Shown here piece after piece: positions 16,291 to 22,890 of a DNA stretch of 64,000 nucleotides. This stretch comes from Fulvivirga lutea (GTDB lineage: Bacteria > Bacteroidota > Bacteroidia > Cytophagales > Cyclobacteriaceae), in NCBI RefSeq assembly GCF_017068455.1, contig NZ_CP070608.1, positions 730,501 to 794,500 on the forward strand, in the 5' to 3' direction. The notes under the pieces were generated by a model. The model ran no database searches. It worked only from the letters and a program-made list of their open reading frames with translations, and was not told the DNA's origin. Position 1 is the first letter of the stretch; every line of letters begins with the position of its first letter. The translations under genes were made by a program, and so were the position numbers.

Positions 16291-17268
16291 TTATGATCGC
16301 ATCATTCCTAACCTTGCCACTTTATCCTCATAACAAGTAGTGTAAGTGGTTTTTAACTGATCCTTCAAAAATGATCGGCCGATAAGAAAATATACTAACT
16401 CATGAGGTTCGGTGAACTCAGCAATGATTTTTTTAATGCGAGACTTTTGGATGCCTATCAGTTGACCGAACTCATAAAAGTCTTGGTAGGTGTAAAAGCC
16501 GTAGGATTCATAGGCTTTTGAAAAGCCATCCTTAAACAATGTAAGCGCCATGTCGGATTCACTTGGAGAATGGATTCGGGTACAAAGCAGATCGTAGGCA
16601 GGTGTGAGTACATAATCACCTTGCGCTGATTGTATAGCAGAAAAGTTCTTCAAATGCGCATCTCCATTAGAGAACACATAGTTGAATAGAATCAGCCGAA
16701 AGAATTTTTCATTTTCAATTCGCTGTGTGGGAATATATTTTTTTATCAGTTCCGCGATTTCTTCATAGGATAAGTCGTACTTATAGTTCTCTCCATGTGT
16801 TTCAGAGGTCATTTGAGCTATTTGAGCAAAATCTTCCTGTTGTATTTTTCCACTCTCAGTTTGATCGAACCTTCGTACCAGATAGGCCGGACTTCCGTCT
16901 TTGAAGAAGATTAATGCGTTTGGAGGTACTGAAAGTTTGAATACTTGTTTAGCGATTTGCATGGTCAAGTGCTCATTAGCAGGAGCCTGATCCAAATATT
17001 TAAATGTTCCAGTAGGTATGGGCTTGAGAATATACTGGCCTCCTCTCTCTGTAAGCTTCAAGTCATTATTTTCAAGTCTAAGCGAATACTTCACTTGTAC
17101 ACCGGATATCGATATTTTTTTGGTATGATCAAGAAATGCATCGGAATCTTCGTCATAAGGAGAATTAAAGGATAGTTCTGTGCTTACTTTCTTCCCTTCA
17201 AATAGCTCCTTCCGGCATTTTGGACAGTATCCTTTTTCACTTTCCTTTAAGCAGCCCTGACAAATCAT
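16291..17268 (-). CDS. hipT: HipT-like toxin kinase with N-terminal zinc ribbon
   Basis: This 325-residue protein matches the HipA C-terminal kinase core without the N-terminal subdomain, which is the separate upstream gene. A four-Cys ribbon opens it (Cys3, Cys6, Cys15, Cys18). The glycine-rich loop region KKISISGVQVKYSL carries the Ser-x-Ser pattern (Ser53, Ser55) where HipT-type kinases are autophosphorylated. Other kinase residues are Lys82 (YILKP), the catalytic Asp203 and Asn208 in NGDAHLKNF, and the metal-binding Asp226 in TPAYDLL. HipA and HipT kinases phosphorylate aminoacyl-tRNA synthetases (GltX for E. coli HipA, TrpS for HipT of E. coli O127), halting translation; the target here is unknown. 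It overlaps hipS by 4 nt (ATGA). Confidence 0.88.
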   Translation of the reverse strand: MICQGCLKESEKGYCPKCRKELFEGKKVSTELSFNSPYDEDSDAFLDHTKKISISGVQVKYSLRLENNDLKLTERGGQYILKPIPTGTFKYLDQAPANEHLTMQIAKQVFKLSVPPNALIFFKDGSPAYLVRRFDQTESGKIQQEDFAQIAQMTSETHGENYKYDLSYEEIAELIKKYIPTQRIENEKFFRLILFNYVFSNGDAHLKNFSAIQSAQGDYVLTPAYDLLCTRIHSPSESDMALTLFKDGFSKAYESYGFYTYQDFYEFGQLIGIQKSRIKKIIAEFTEPHELVYFLIGRSFLKDQLKTTYTTCYEDKVARLGMMRS

Positions 17269-17594
17269 TTTGTTATTTCATTTATTGTGATAGACCCAAT
17301 AGTATCAGTTTTGGCCGTTTTTAATAACAGGCTGAAGTGGTCTTTTTCGTCAATTTTTAGCAACCTGCATTGTGTTTGCCTATTCACTCCTTCTGAAAGC
17401 AGTCCATAGAAGAAAGGAAATAGTACGGATGACTGATAAGTCTGTTCTGTTTTAGGCATTGTCAGACTTATGGCTGATGTTTCAGGATTGTTTAGATAAT
17501 GCTGATCATATGTGAAGGTATACTCTCCTTGTTCGGTCTTTTCAAGCAAGCCTGCCAGTAAGTTGTTGTTATATACCTCCGCTCTTTTGTTCAT
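17265..17594 (-). CDS. hipS: HipS-like protein (HipA N-terminal subdomain as a separate gene)
   Basis: This 109-residue protein corresponds to the HipA N-terminal subdomain 1 (couple_hipA). It begins MNKRAEVYNNNLLAGLLEK, and the middle holds the family pattern of Tyr/Phe, AISLTMP, FPFFYGLLSEGVNRQ. In single-chain HipA this region is fused to the kinase. Here it is separated by a stop and overlaps hipB and hipT by 4 nt at each end, the gene order B-S-T of the tripartite HipBST system. In the E. coli O127 system HipS, not HipB, is the main antitoxin that neutralises HipT; by analogy that role is inferred here. A frameshifted hipA is unlikely because both junctions are clean ATGA couplings. Confidence 0.85.
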   Translation of the reverse strand: MNKRAEVYNNNLLAGLLEKTEQGEYTFTYDQHYLNNPETSAISLTMPKTEQTYQSSVLFPFFYGLLSEGVNRQTQCRLLKIDEKDHFSLLLKTAKTDTIGSITINEITK

Positions 17595-17794
17595 TTGATT
17601 ACGTCAATCGAAAGCTCCAATCCTAGTACTTCACACAGCTTCATTAGGCTAGCTAACTCGGGGTTAGCTGATCCCTTTTCAATATCTCGTAAGGTCCGCT
17701 CTGAAATCCCGGAGATTTCCGCTAGATCTTCTTGTGTGATCTTTAGAAATTTTCTTCGTTCTTTAACTGTTTCTCCTATTTTCTTAATATCCAT
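17591..17794 (-). CDS. hipB: HipB-like helix-turn-helix regulator
   Basis: This 67-residue protein is a Xre/Cro-type helix-turn-helix (QEDLAEISGISERTLRDIEKGSANPELASLMKLCEVLG), named in pieces: recognition helix around ERTLRDIEKG, residues 32-41. The start at 17794 is chosen over an in-frame start at 17866 for two reasons. A promoter (17821-17851) and two palindromic operators lie between them, and the operator nearest the gene ends 4 nt upstream of this ATG, covering the ribosome-binding region. The stop overlaps hipS by 4 nt. It should bind the three operators and repress its own operon, with HipS and HipT as possible co-repressors. Confidence 0.85.
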   Translation of the reverse strand: MDIKKIGETVKERRKFLKITQEDLAEISGISERTLRDIEKGSANPELASLMKLCEVLGLELSIDVIK

Positions 17795-17797
17795 ACC

Positions 17798-17813
17798 CAG
17801 CAATATTTTGCCG
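17798..17813. promoter_or_regulatory. hip operator O1
   Basis: CAGCAA-N4-TTGCCG is an inverted repeat with one mismatch, centred at 17805.5. It covers the ribosome-binding region just upstream of the hipB ATG, so a bound repressor would block both transcription elongation and initiation of translation. It shares the GGCAA-TATT-TTGCC core with O2 and O3. Confidence 0.75.
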
Positions 17814-17820
17814 ATTTTAA

Positions 17821-17851
17821 CAAAGTAAGCGATAATAATTAAGGAATCAAA
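17821..17851 (-). promoter_or_regulatory. Candidate hipBST promoter
   Basis: On the minus strand TTTG (17848-17851) is followed after 20 nt by TACTTTG (17821-17827), a near match to the Bacteroidota -33/-7 pair TTTG and TAnnTTTG (one base short). The promoter sits exactly between operators O1 and O2, and predicts a leader of about 20 nt that contains O1. Confidence 0.6.
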
Positions 17852-17854
17852 CAT

Positions 17855-17876
17855 ATTCGGCAACACTTTGCCGAAT
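17855..17876. promoter_or_regulatory. hip operator O2
   Basis: A perfect 9-bp inverted repeat, ATTCGGCAA-N4-TTGCCGAAT, centred at 17865.5, lies directly upstream of the -33 box of the hip promoter. It is the best-conserved of three operators and probably the highest-affinity HipB site. Confidence 0.8.
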
Positions 17877-17917
17877 TAACTATCTATTAGGCATGGGCTA
17901 ATTGATTTACTAAAAAA

Positions 17918-17933
17918 CGGCAATATTATGCTG
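17918..17933. promoter_or_regulatory. hip operator O3
   Basis: CGGCAA-N4-ATGCTG is an imperfect inverted repeat (two mismatched pairs) with the same TATT spacer as O1, centred at 17925.5. It is exactly 60 bp from O2 and one base from the stop codon of the M1 peptidase gene, so it marks the outer edge of the hip island. Confidence 0.65.
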
Positions 17934-17934
17934 G

Positions 17935-17980
17935 TTAACGCGGATAAACATTATTCTCTTTAAAAGAATCACCTGTCTGT
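17935..17980 (-). repeat. Direct repeat partner of 16165-16210 (3' end of M1 peptidase gene)
   Basis: The terminal 46 bases of the intact M1 gene recur 1770 bp away at 16165-16210, same orientation, 41 of 46 identical. The two copies bracket the hip operon together with its operators. This may be a recombination footprint or a relic of a third tandem peptidase gene. Confidence 0.8.
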
Positions 17981-20085
17981 TGCTTGGGGTCCAGTTGCAG
18001 TTTTTTAATCTCCTTATCCAGAATAAAAGCTTTTCGCACTGCATACTCATTGAATCGCCAAATTTCTGCAGGGATGGTAATTAGCTCTTTTTCATTATCA
18101 GTATAGGTGATTTCTAAAACTATCGGAGAAACCAAACCACCAACATTAATAAAAGTAATTTCATACAGATGTTTTTGAGCCAAAGTATTTCTGATCGCTT
18201 TGTCGTCTACCCTATTTTCAAATTCTTTATAGGCAGATTTAGGGGTGTCTTTTATCACCCATTGCTGCGGTAATTGTGGGAGCTGATGCTTATTCAAATT
18301 ACTGGACTTTGCGAACTCTGAACTCTCTAAACGATACCACTCCACATCTTCTATACTGATGTCCACTGCATCACTGCTGTAAAACCAGCCTCTCCAAAAC
18401 CAATCCAGGTCCACTGCCGAAGCATCTTCCATGGTCCTAAAAAAATCAGCGGGCTTTGGTCGCTTAAACTTCCATCGGTTGGCGTATTCTTTAATTGCAA
18501 AATCGAAAAGGTCAGGGTCCATGACCACATTTCGTAATACCTCCAATGCCGCACTTGGTTGACCATAACTCGACACACTTGATAGGGTTAAGTTTTCTGG
18601 GTTAGTCATGGGCGGCCTTTCTCTAAATTCATTCACGGCCATGTAAAAAGACATAGATTTGGCATCACCCCAATGCGGGTCTTTAGGATAATATTTTTGC
18701 TTGGTTAACAATTCGAAGAATGTAGTAATACCTTCATCCATCCACTCATAAAGTTTTTCATCCGAATTCACAATCATAGGAAAGTAATTATGTCCTATTT
18801 CATGGATCACCACATCTACCAGTGTATTTTTCTCTTCATTAGAATATCTACCTTTTTTAGAAGGCCTACCTCCGTTAAAGGAGATCATTGGGTATTCCAT
18901 TCCATGATCGGCCGAGCTTACACTTATCGCTACGGGGTATGGATAAGTGAATAGTTTTTCCGAAAACAATTGGAGTGTGTTTTTAATGGCTTTTGTTGAA
19001 TGATCTTCCCACAACGGGTTAGCTTCTTTGGGATAGTATGACATGGCCATAACCTGATTATCTCCCAAGTCTACCATTTGAGCATCCCAAATAAATTTTC
19101 TACTGCTTGCAAAGGCAAAATCACGCACATCTTCTGCTTGAAAATGCCAGGTTTTTGTGGTGGTGGCTTTCGACTTTTCATTTTCGTTAGCCTCCTTTTC
19201 TGTCACAATTAGTTGAGCTTTATCATACGATGACAACGCCTTTTGCAGTCGCTCTTGTTGTGTTGTACTTAATACGGCATTACTATTTTGTAGAAGGCCA
19301 GTGGCAGCCACAATATGATCTGATGGCACCGTTATTTGTACATCAAAATCACCAAACTCAAGGGCAAACTCACCATTTTCTATAAACTGTTTATTTTGCC
19401 ACCCCACCGCATCATCATAGGCACACATTCTGGGATACCACTGGGCGATGGTATAGATGTAATTATCATCATCAGGAAAATACTCGTAACCACCACGCCC
19501 TCGTATCATCAATCGATCATAAATATTATATTCCCAACTGATGTTAAAGCTGATGGAATCGCCACTTTTTAGTGGGTGATCCAATGGCAGCTTCATCATT
19601 GTTCTATTGATAAGATACTTCATTGGGTTGCCACTTGCATCGGTCACAGATTTAATGTTATACCCGCCTTCGTATTCAAAGCCGCCAAGTTCTGTTACCG
19701 CTTCAAAGGTTGTCATTCCCCTTTCTAAGGTAGCCTGACGAGTTAGTTGGTTGATGTTATTCTCGGCTCTAACATTTTGATCAAGTTGTAACCAGAGATA
19801 GTTGAGGGATGTGGGTGAATTGTTAAAATACGTGATGGTTTCCTCACCAATAATTTTTTGATTTTTATCGTCAAGAGTTACTCTAATAGTATAATCAGCT
19901 TTTTGTTGCCAGTATTCCGGACCTGGCGACCCATCGGCTGAACGATAGGAATTGGGAGTGGGTAGCAGGTCATCCATTTGCTCAAATTTGCCTTGCCATT
20001 GGGCATGTGCATACATGCATGGAAGCATGAGTAGTATCGTAGTCCAGCTGAGGGTTGTTTTTATGGCAGATATATTATTGCTCAC
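17935..20085 (-). CDS. Secreted M1 family aminopeptidase-like metallopeptidase (downstream paralogue)
   Basis: This 716-residue protein has the M1 zinc motif HEIGHNYFP (about residues 428-436), with the third ligand Glu in the DEGITTFFE segment downstream, and a GMEYP motif equivalent to the exopeptidase GxMEN loop. An N-terminal M1 beta domain begins after a signal peptide ending AHAQ. Both possible starts are GTG. The one at 20085 is preferred because GGAG lies 7 nt upstream and it overlaps the previous gene by only 11 nt; the GTG at 20115 would overlap by 41 nt. It is a tandem paralogue of the next gene, sharing long blocks such as ADFFRTMEDASAVDLDWFW. It probably trims peptides outside the cytoplasm. 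Confidence 0.88.
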   Translation of the reverse strand: MSNNISAIKTTLSWTTILLMLPCMYAHAQWQGKFEQMDDLLPTPNSYRSADGSPGPEYWQQKADYTIRVTLDDKNQKIIGEETITYFNNSPTSLNYLWLQLDQNVRAENNINQLTRQATLERGMTTFEAVTELGGFEYEGGYNIKSVTDASGNPMKYLINRTMMKLPLDHPLKSGDSISFNISWEYNIYDRLMIRGRGGYEYFPDDDNYIYTIAQWYPRMCAYDDAVGWQNKQFIENGEFALEFGDFDVQITVPSDHIVAATGLLQNSNAVLSTTQQERLQKALSSYDKAQLIVTEKEANENEKSKATTTKTWHFQAEDVRDFAFASSRKFIWDAQMVDLGDNQVMAMSYYPKEANPLWEDHSTKAIKNTLQLFSEKLFTYPYPVAISVSSADHGMEYPMISFNGGRPSKKGRYSNEEKNTLVDVVIHEIGHNYFPMIVNSDEKLYEWMDEGITTFFELLTKQKYYPKDPHWGDAKSMSFYMAVNEFRERPPMTNPENLTLSSVSSYGQPSAALEVLRNVVMDPDLFDFAIKEYANRWKFKRPKPADFFRTMEDASAVDLDWFWRGWFYSSDAVDISIEDVEWYRLESSEFAKSSNLNKHQLPQLPQQWVIKDTPKSAYKEFENRVDDKAIRNTLAQKHLYEITFINVGGLVSPIVLEITYTDNEKELITIPAEIWRFNEYAVRKAFILDKEIKKLQLDPKQQTGDSFKENNVYPR

Positions 20086-22312
20086 TTTGCTTCTCCAAAA
20101 ACTTATCAAACTCACTTTCTGCTTTTTTTCTAGGGTACAGATTGTTGGTCATATCTGTATCTGCTGTTTCGAAATAGGGATCCAGAACTACATTCACCAC
20201 TTTTTTATCAAAGACGAATACCTTCTTCACAGTGTTTTCATCTAATCGCCATATTTCAGCAGGAATAGTTTGTTGCTCTTTTGTATCGTCATCAAAAATA
20301 AATTCAATAACGATGGGCGATATCAGTCCACCTTGGTTGGTGAATGTAATTTCATAGAAGTTTTTGCTTTCTAAATTCTCAATTATGGCGGCATCGTCTA
20401 TTCTGCTTTGAAACTCATTGTAATGAAAACGAGGTGTAGGCTTGATATTAAATGGCAGAGGCTCGTCATTTATTGCTAATAATTTATTGTTTTCTGAGCG
20501 TTGTAAATCGCCTTTTTTTGACTTCTTCGTTTTGTTCTCAACATCAACTGTTGATGAAGGTGTTCGGTACCACTTCACATCATCTATCGAAATATCTACA
20601 TGTTCGGTACTGAAAAACCAGCCCCTCCAAAACCAATCTAAATCTACCGCTGAGGCATCTTCCATCGTTCTGAAAAAATCTGCTGGTTTTGGATGTTTAA
20701 ACGCCCACCTTTTAGCGTATTCTTTAAAGGCTTCATCAAAAAGCTCTGGCCCCATAACGGTTTCTCTTAGCACGTTTAGTGCTGCTGAAGGTAGATAGTA
20801 GGCATTATATCCACGACTCACCATTTGCTCGGGGTTGGTCATAATTGGGCGCAACAAATTGGGATCTCTCTTCATGTAATCCACAATCTCGATTGCGGTA
20901 CCACCCATATTAGGGAAATAGTCATAGTTTTCTAATCGGGTTCGGTTTTGAAGAAAGGTGTTAATCCCTTCGTCCATCCATGCCCATTGTCTTTCATCCG
21001 AATTCACGATCATGGGAAAATAGTTGTGCCCAATTTCATGGATGATAACATTAATGGTTTTGAATTTTACCCAGTCGGAATAACTGCCATCAGGCTGAGT
21101 ACGCCCATAGTTGAAGCAAATCATTGGATACTCCATGCCAATATCAGCACTATTTACTGAGTTAGCAACTGGATAAGGATAGTCGAAGGTATATTTTGAA
21201 TAGGTTTCTAAAGTGGTTCTTATCGTTGCTGTGGATACCTTGCTCCAAAGGGTATACGATTCTTTTGGATAAAAAGACATCGCTAATGGGGTATTGGAGT
21301 CCAACTTTACTGCTTGTGCATCCCAAATGAACTTTCTTGATGAGGCAAAGGCAAAATCGCGAACATTTTTAGCGGAGAAGGTCCAGGTAACTTGCCTGTT
21401 GGACTTACTTTTTTCGTTTTTAACTGCCTCATCTTTAGTGACTATAAAAACGGGCTTATCAAAGCTTTTCTTGGAGGCCACATAACGCTCTAATTGCTCG
21501 GCACTCAATACTTTTTCCGGGTTTTGGAGTTCACCGGTGGCAGCAATAATGTGATCGGACGGTACCGTTATATTCACATTAAAATCCCCAAAAGTTAGTG
21601 CAAACTCACCGGCACCCAAGTATTGCTTGTTTTGCCACCCATTTACATCATCATATACTGCCATTCTAGGGTAGAACTGTGCAACGGCATAAATGTAGTT
21701 ATCATCTTCAGGAAAATACTCATAACCATTTCTACCGGCCAGCTTCATTCTATCAGCCATGTGATAGTTCCACTTTATTTTAACTTTAACAGACTCACCA
21801 GATGTCAATGGCGTTGGGAGGTCAATTCGCATCATCGTTTGATTGATAACGTATTTTAATGCAGAGTTGTCTTCGTCTAAAACGTGTTCGATATTTAAAC
21901 CCCCTTTGAAATTATGCAGATTAAAGTTTTTGGCTGCAGACTTGGTATCTTGACTATTATGCAGCCCATCTAAAGCAACTTTAGGGGTAGCAGAATCTTC
22001 ATCTAAAATATTCTGGTCTAGCTGCAACCATAAGTAGCTAAGTGCATTTGGTGAATTATTGAAATAAGTAATTGTTTCTTCACCGGTAATGGTTTGATTT
22101 ATATCGTCCAGAGTTACATGAATATCATAGTTGGCTTTTTGCTGCCAATATTTTGGGCCAGGCGCTCCAGAGCCGAGGCGGTATTCATTTGGTGTAGGTA
22201 ATTCTTTGCCTAATTGCTCAAACTTACCCTGCCAATTGGAACTTTGACCAACGGTGCAAAAGTATGTAGTAACAAGAAAGCAGGTTAATATAGTTTTGTT
22301 AAAATGAATCAC
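20075..22312 (-). CDS. Secreted M1 family aminopeptidase-like metallopeptidase (upstream paralogue)
   Basis: This 745-residue paralogue of the neighbouring M1 protein has HEIGHNYFP at about residue 425, the DEGINTFLQ third-ligand region and the GMEYP loop. The N-terminus is a signal peptide (hydrophobic segment to CTVGQ). The GTG at 22312 is chosen because it overlaps the HupE-like gene's stop in a GTGA 4-nt coupling; a TTG one codon earlier is possible. Compared with its twin it carries an extra charged insert near residues 590-625 (KTKKSKKGDLQR region) and a longer charged C-terminus (KKAESEFDKFLEK). The two are transcribed together with the HupE-like gene. The duplication suggests diverging substrate ranges. 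Confidence 0.87.
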   Translation of the reverse strand: MIHFNKTILTCFLVTTYFCTVGQSSNWQGKFEQLGKELPTPNEYRLGSGAPGPKYWQQKANYDIHVTLDDINQTITGEETITYFNNSPNALSYLWLQLDQNILDEDSATPKVALDGLHNSQDTKSAAKNFNLHNFKGGLNIEHVLDEDNSALKYVINQTMMRIDLPTPLTSGESVKVKIKWNYHMADRMKLAGRNGYEYFPEDDNYIYAVAQFYPRMAVYDDVNGWQNKQYLGAGEFALTFGDFNVNITVPSDHIIAATGELQNPEKVLSAEQLERYVASKKSFDKPVFIVTKDEAVKNEKSKSNRQVTWTFSAKNVRDFAFASSRKFIWDAQAVKLDSNTPLAMSFYPKESYTLWSKVSTATIRTTLETYSKYTFDYPYPVANSVNSADIGMEYPMICFNYGRTQPDGSYSDWVKFKTINVIIHEIGHNYFPMIVNSDERQWAWMDEGINTFLQNRTRLENYDYFPNMGGTAIEIVDYMKRDPNLLRPIMTNPEQMVSRGYNAYYLPSAALNVLRETVMGPELFDEAFKEYAKRWAFKHPKPADFFRTMEDASAVDLDWFWRGWFFSTEHVDISIDDVKWYRTPSSTVDVENKTKKSKKGDLQRSENNKLLAINDEPLPFNIKPTPRFHYNEFQSRIDDAAIIENLESKNFYEITFTNQGGLISPIVIEFIFDDDTKEQQTIPAEIWRLDENTVKKVFVFDKKVVNVVLDPYFETADTDMTNNLYPRKKAESEFDKFLEKQSEQ

Positions 22313-22890
22313 CAATAAATAGCTTCAACAGTTAGTAAAAGGGAAATTCCAGCTATGGCAGAAGAGAGCACCAGCCTCCAATCACGTCTATTTACAGAGA
22401 AAATTTCAGTAAAAATAAAGCTTCCTCCTAATACACATAAAACAATTAAAAGCTGACCAAGCTCCAAGCCAAGATTGAAACCAAATAGCTGAACCACAAT
22501 GTTATTGCCTGATCCTAATAACTGTTTTAAATAGTTTGAAAAACCCATTCCATGTATTAATCCGAAAAATAAGGTAAGAGCATAACTGCTCCATTTCACC
22601 TGCTGATTTAACACATCTTTTTTGAACAAGTTCAATAGTGCCGTTATTAGAATAGTTAAGGGAATCAGAAACTCTATTATTTCAGTAGGGAATGATATAA
22701 TTTCAAATGAAGCTAACGCAAGGCTTACTGAGTGGCCAAGGGTAAAGGCGGTCACCAGAAAAACTACTTTCTTCCATTCTATAAAACTAAATAACCCTGA
22801 AATGGCAATAATAAACAGGACATGATCGATCCCGTTCCAATCTAATATGTGTTCTCGCCCAAGGGTCATATACAATAAAAACTCCTCCAT
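22309..22890 (-). CDS. HupE/UreJ-like integral membrane protein
   Basis: This 193-residue protein has about six hydrophobic helices. It starts with the family pattern GREHILDWNGIDHVLFIIAI (His and Asp in the first helix) and has AFTLGHSVSLALAS and HGMGFSNYL further on; conserved His residues suggest metal binding or transport. HupE/UreJ proteins are linked to nickel or cobalt uptake, but this Bacteroidota branch sits beside M1 peptidases and DUF6702 proteins rather than hydrogenase or urease genes, so its substrate is uncertain. It is first in the minus-strand operon HupE-like, M1, M1. It is divergent from the DUF6702 gene with a 64-nt gap. Confidence 0.82.
   Translation of the reverse strand: MEEFLLYMTLGREHILDWNGIDHVLFIIAISGLFSFIEWKKVVFLVTAFTLGHSVSLALASFEIISFPTEIIEFLIPLTILITALLNLFKKDVLNQQVKWSSYALTLFFGLIHGMGFSNYLKQLLGSGNNIVVQLFGFNLGLELGQLLIVLCVLGGSFIFTEIFSVNRRDWRLVLSSAIAGISLLLTVEAIYW

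Follow-up and report, generated by a model that had tools for sequence, protein, structure and literature searches.

An evenly spaced operator array upstream of hipBST

Three inverted repeats, O1 to O3, lie with their centres 60 base pairs (bp) apart upstream of the hipB-hipS-hipT operon of Fulvivirga lutea, and related hipBST promoters keep this spacing at 60–62 bp. The array is part of a stretch of 64,000 nucleotides (NCBI RefSeq assembly GCF_017068455.1, contig NZ_CP070608.1, positions 730,501 to 794,500 of the forward strand), here called the window, whose own positions are used below. Sequence comparison indicates that the repeats are very probably operators of the repressor HipB. The best explanation of their spacing, and in our judgment a probable one, is that HipBST complexes, arranged in helical phase and in contact with one another along the DNA, repress their own operon. 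The array comprises the following elements.

17797..17814, no strand: O1, AGCAA-TATT-TTGCC, degenerate inverted repeat, centre 17805.5, at −11.5 from the hipB ATG
17855..17876, no strand: O2, ATTCGGCAA-CACT-TTGCCGAAT, perfect 9-bp arms, centre 17865.5
17917..17934, no strand: O3, GGCAA-TATT-ATGCT, degenerate inverted repeat, centre 17925.5
17821..17851, minus strand: predicted Bacteroidota-type promoter between O2 and O1, TTTG at 17851–17848, N19, TTACTTTG at 17828–17821

An earlier, sequence-only reading of this DNA had placed three repeats at these centres, and both direct inspection and an independent repeat finder, which returned start-to-start spacings of 60 and 60 for the same repeat family, agree with it. 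Its description of O2 as a perfect 9-bp palindrome is borne out by the two arms. The core that it gave, GGCAA-N4-TTGCC, is exact in O2 only, with one mismatch in O1 and two in O3; the core shared by the sites is rather GGCA-N6-TGCC, matched at 7/8, 8/8, and 7/8 positions in O1, O2, and O3. The promoter announced between O1 and O2 is present as an element, but with an N19 spacer and TTACTTTG, one mismatch from TAnnTTTG, instead of N20-TACTTTG. As that reading had also proposed, O1 lies at the translation start region, some 2 bp ahead of the hipB ATG, and O3 adjoins the stop codon (17937–17935) of the upstream M1-peptidase gene.

The array stands alone in the 4.14-Mb genome: TCGGCAANNNNTTGCCGA occurs exactly at O2 only, and 60-bp pairs with at most one mismatch in 16 fixed positions were found only here (two overlapping pairs). 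A reversed control pattern gave no pair in the whole genome, even at three mismatches. The possibility of further HipB targets in the genome was rejected, as there was no second 60-bp pair at up to one mismatch; scattered single near-matches do occur.

The spacing is conserved among related promoters

We collected 157 loci with hipB in place by HipT searches of the family, the order, the phylum, and one named genome collection, which yielded 145 distinct upstream regions. HipT similarity was the criterion for including a locus, and coverage of the tree is uneven. Most come from Bacteroidota, others from records that bear the labels Ignavibacteriota, Fibrobacterota, Acidobacteria (Blastocatellia), Cloacimonadota, and Campylobacterota; the taxonomy of metagenome-assembled genomes (MAGs) is given as labelled and may be wrong. 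Start codons of the relatives were projected by homology. All pairs of positions were then scored by dyad symmetry and mutual similarity, with no motif supplied; additional sites had to pass a cut-off with a false-call rate of about 10% per locus. One hipBST promoter, on an Aliivibrio plasmid, was too AT-rich for operator calling.

In the 13 closest orthologues (HipT 62–100% identical), the O2–O1 spacing is 60–62 bp in 13/13, a site equivalent to O1 is present in 13/13, and a third site stands at 60–62 bp in most. Over the range 18–130 bp, the best pair fell at 59–63 bp in 105/145 promoters, compared with 25/435 dinucleotide shuffles. When the range was 40–90 bp, 129/145 best pairs were at 60–62 bp and 5 at 70–71 bp, and the counts at 60–62 bp in two sets of control stretches taken within hipT were 15/145 and 5/145. 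The 60–62 bp pair was kept after clustering of HipT, in 26/33 loci at 60% identity and 21/26 at 55%. A third site at 59–63 bp was detected in 62 of the 105 promoters (6 expected), three-site arrays are the commonest form, and 172/194 adjacent gaps measured 60–62 bp with gap size unrestricted. One array caller worked with restricted gaps; its gap counts are excluded from the phasing argument below, which uses unrestricted callers. Spacing thus does not vary freely in orthologous loci; free variation was the outcome that the sequence-only reading had named as fatal to its proposal. Its emphasis on exactly 60 bp did not survive, since the family ranges over 60–62 bp with a mode of 61, against 60 at the window locus, and another hipBST clade uses 39–41 bp.

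A 61/61 array was found in a MAG labelled Alcanivoracaceae, and a 61-bp spacing in the Arcobacter cloacae plasmid pACLO, which is a complete record. In three loci (L015, L016, and L019) the array has four sites: two copies of the middle operator, 19 bp apart, and outer sites about 60–62 bp away on each side. One outlier (L077), whose strong sites are spaced by 56 and 86 bp, departs from the 61-bp ruler by amounts that are not whole turns.

Length, rather than spacer sequence or start distance, is held

Could the spacing simply be inherited, either as an old length that has had no time to change or as a recently duplicated 60-bp unit? All the loci are homologous operons, as such a history would have it. 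However, operators and spacers have strongly diverged, and the length has shifted by no more than about 1 bp: among close orthologues spacers are 37% identical, compared with 78% for O1. The distance from O1 to the ATG was free to vary in the same promoters, from −63.5 to +7.5 with a mode of −2.5, where the ATG is inside O1. Spacer sequence is not kept and the start distance varies, so it is the length itself that is held. Inheritance alone is already disfavoured, and we judge it very improbable. Its variant, the duplicated unit, was rejected because the spacers within one array are not homologous, being no more alike than shuffled sequences (31.5% vs. 29.6%). In 71 relatives, L024 and L035 for example, O1 is centred at −2.5 and the hipB start codon lies within the operator.

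Another explanation is that the promoter dictates the spacing: O1 and O2 would flank the footprint of RNA polymerase, whose promoter would set 60–62 bp, and each site would block polymerase singly. The anatomy of the window fits this, and in most relatives the O2–O1 interval carries the same promoter element, its end nearly constant at 15–17 bp from the O1 centre. However, the O3–O2 interval is equal in length, and promoter-match scoring of the arrays in relatives detected no promoter there (mean match 6.5/10 vs. 7.8/10 for O2–O1), so the spacing needs more than bracketing to explain it. A second hipBST clade represented in the same genome, and so served by the same sigma factors, yet uses 40–41 bp. 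We consider it unlikely that the promoter sets the distance.

The operon encodes HipBST, and the HipB recognition helix co-varies with the operator

The genes downstream of the array are the following.

17591..17794, minus strand: hipB, 67-amino acid helix-turn-helix repressor, ATG start at 17794–17792; Pfam HTH_3, E = 5.5e-14
17265..17594, minus strand: hipS, 109 amino acids, similar to HipA N-subdomain 1; Pfam Couple_hipA, E = 2.5e-20
16291..17268, minus strand: hipT, 325-amino acid HipA-like kinase; Pfam HipA_C, E = 3.1e-43

Consecutive genes overlap by 4 bp, at the end of hipB and the start of hipS and again at the end of hipS and the start of hipT. Among solved structures, those of Legionella HipBST come closest to this HipT and HipS: HipT matches HipT(Lp) (7vkb_A, E = 1.6e-32; also 8ezr) and 7ab3 (E = 1.7e-21), and HipS matches HipS(Lp) (7vkb_B, E = 6.6e-16). 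Solved matches of the hipB product include HipB(Lp) (8ezt, E = 8.5e-06). The predicted kinase HipT conserves the motifs NGDAHLKN and SISGVQ and has no N-terminal subdomain of its own; its residues 51–229 align to HipA 148–335, and a separate Couple_hipA protein is present. The gene order, hipB (helix-turn-helix), hipS, and hipT (HipA_C kinase), is kept in the relatives. By these sequence features, the operon at 16291..17794 is a tripartite HipBST toxin–antitoxin system. A longer, GTG-started frame for hipB was rejected, as its start falls inside O2 and homologues give it no support.

The half-site varies by lineage and reads GGCA, TGCA, CACA, GGTA, or AGAA. Among the 67 HipB columns, residues 36, 33, 37, and 32 tell most about operator class, and all four belong to the recognition helix. 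Kinship inflates the informativeness of every column; what counts here is the excess of the recognition helix over the remaining ones. GGCA is mostly paired with xRTLRDIE, TGCA with xRTLKxIE, CACA with xNTLYKIE, and GGTA with xKT(I/L)YxIE. Since the operator sequence varies and does so together with the recognition helix, the repeats are very probably HipB operators, and we strongly infer that HipB binds them. The identification of hip operators made from the letters alone is therefore strongly supported, by the nature of the operon and by this covariation. It appears that the repressor and its binding site evolved in concert, with the spacing unaltered.

Other HipBST clades use other spacings

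The second clade, also in Bacteroidota (HipT about 33% identical), has TATACCC-N4-GGGTATA or related operators at 39–41 bp. Its best pair lies at 40–41 bp or about double that distance in 44/46 loci, and 94/108 adjacent gaps are of 39–41 bp with gap size unrestricted. The F. lutea genome carries such an operon (L175, G000:C1:3790400-3793500), with TATACCC-N4-GGGTATA sites at 40–41 bp, centred at about −138.5, −97.5, −57.5, and −16.5 from hipB; it resembles the window locus in having hipB-hipS-hipT and an even operator array, and differs in motif and spacing. In a third, small clade (TTACTG...CAGTAA) the spacing is 61 bp, except in one member at 72–73 bp.

Loci of one spacing class group together on the HipT tree, where the class changes 10 times, compared with 31 times after shuffling. 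A single clade of 43 HipT rows makes up the 40-bp class (support 100/98; three rows are unassigned), while spacings of 70–73 bp occur at about five separate places among the 61-bp relatives, and gaps of 61 and 70 bp are mixed within some arrays (L039, for example). From 40 to 61 to 71 bp, the steps are of about two turns and about one turn of the helix.

Contact between neighbouring complexes as the probable explanation

A ruler that is specific to protein clades, quantised in helical turns, and present also where no promoter is seen makes contact between neighbours the best explanation. Each of the three operators would be bound by one HipB dimer, and the array would autoregulate the HipBST operon. 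O1 and O2 would bracket the promoter, with O3 one ruler-length farther upstream. At 60–62 bp, or about six turns, neighbouring HipB-HipS-HipT complexes would share roughly one face of the helix and be at contact distance. HipB being small, contact would most likely be made through HipS/HipT. Repression may then be stronger when antitoxin–toxin complexes are plentiful and weaker when they are scarce. The cooperative looping or higher-order assembly suggested from the exact periodicity is consistent with this model and favoured by the clade-specific, whole-turn rulers; contact between complexes, cooperativity, and a response to the toxin–antitoxin ratio are what we infer from the pattern of sites. 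A more specific proposal, for which we see even chances, is that the HipBST clade, not the promoter, sets the ruler at about 4, 6, or 7 turns, that complexes assemble in phase, and that spacing reports the mode of contact.

Conditional cooperativity occurs in other toxin–antitoxin systems, an analogy that we use in placing the contact in HipS-HipT. Legionella gel shifts suggest that HipB alone fills the three sites stepwise and not cooperatively and that HipT and HipS add to the complex (PMC10653801), and we place the contact in HipS-HipT accordingly. Stepwise filling is also among the points that weigh against the contact model. Only two sites are detectable in 43/114 loci. The residual odd gaps, other than 60–62 bp, showed no significant 10–11 bp periodicity, so it is the three main spacing classes that carry the argument for phasing. 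Finally, 61/10.5 gives 5.8 turns, and a whole number needs a repeat near 10.2 bp or altered bound DNA.

The sites might instead be independent and serve graded repression, dimers binding singly with stepwise occupancy and the spacing only preventing clashes. Legionella HipB does give intermediate gel-shift species and binds each operator in isolation (PMC10653801). Avoiding clashes, however, would fix only a minimum distance, whereas the observed one keeps to within 1 bp across widely diverged loci, and we regard this explanation as improbable.

Relation to known systems

Three evenly spaced HipB operators are already known from Legionella pneumophila hipBST, where 18-nucleotide inverted repeats upstream of hipB are conserved across 28 species; the upstream operators are degenerate, and HipB binds each in gel shifts (PMC10653801). 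Both systems are tripartite, with three even inverted repeats upstream of hipB (60/60 here). They differ in operator sequence and spacing: the published 53-bp gaps and 18-nucleotide sites would correspond to about 71 bp from centre to centre in Legionella, compared with 60 bp here and 70–71 bp in few relatives. O1 of Legionella lies 24 nucleotides upstream of the start codon and overlaps the promoter (PMC10653801). There, DNA is bound by HipB on its own, by HipB-HipT, and probably by the three proteins together (PMC10653801).

The hipBA locus of Escherichia coli K-12 also has a HipB-type helix-turn-helix repressor and several inverted repeats upstream of hipB. It differs in having two genes and TATCC-N8-GGATA sites centred at −125.5, −97.5, −58.5, and −30.5, spaced by 28/39/28 bp, unlike the GGCA-N6-TGCC array at 60/60 of the window. 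HipBST of E. coli O127:H6 shares the gene order and the split of the HipA domains into HipS and HipT, and the HipB2(HipST)2 hexamer would be a plausible building block (PMC6581861, PMC10627512). HipBST systems are defined in part by HipT being a toxic kinase, directed at TrpS in E. coli, whose activity HipS neutralises.

In the open-licence literature we found no published report of the 60–62 bp class, of the 40-bp class, or of both in one genome, nor of the pairing between operator and recognition helix. The breadth of the array, the clade-specific rulers, and the specificity pairing appear to be new. That the spacing persists through changes in operator sequence and HipB specificity suggests that neighbouring complexes touch. 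Knowing which recognition-helix residues accompany each operator class also helps to predict HipB targets, and the spacing pattern aids annotation of hipBST promoters.

Other features

The N-terminus of HipT (17215–17268, minus strand) carries a CxxC...CxxC motif, MICQGCLKESEKGYCPKCRKELF, that resembles a small zinc ribbon, and a similar one is present in 43/145 relatives. Directly upstream of the operon (17935–22315) are two similar M1-peptidase-like genes in tandem. The third HipA_C kinase of the genome (L166, G000:C1:1493052-1493693), a 423-amino acid open frame, is probably of the full-length HipA type.
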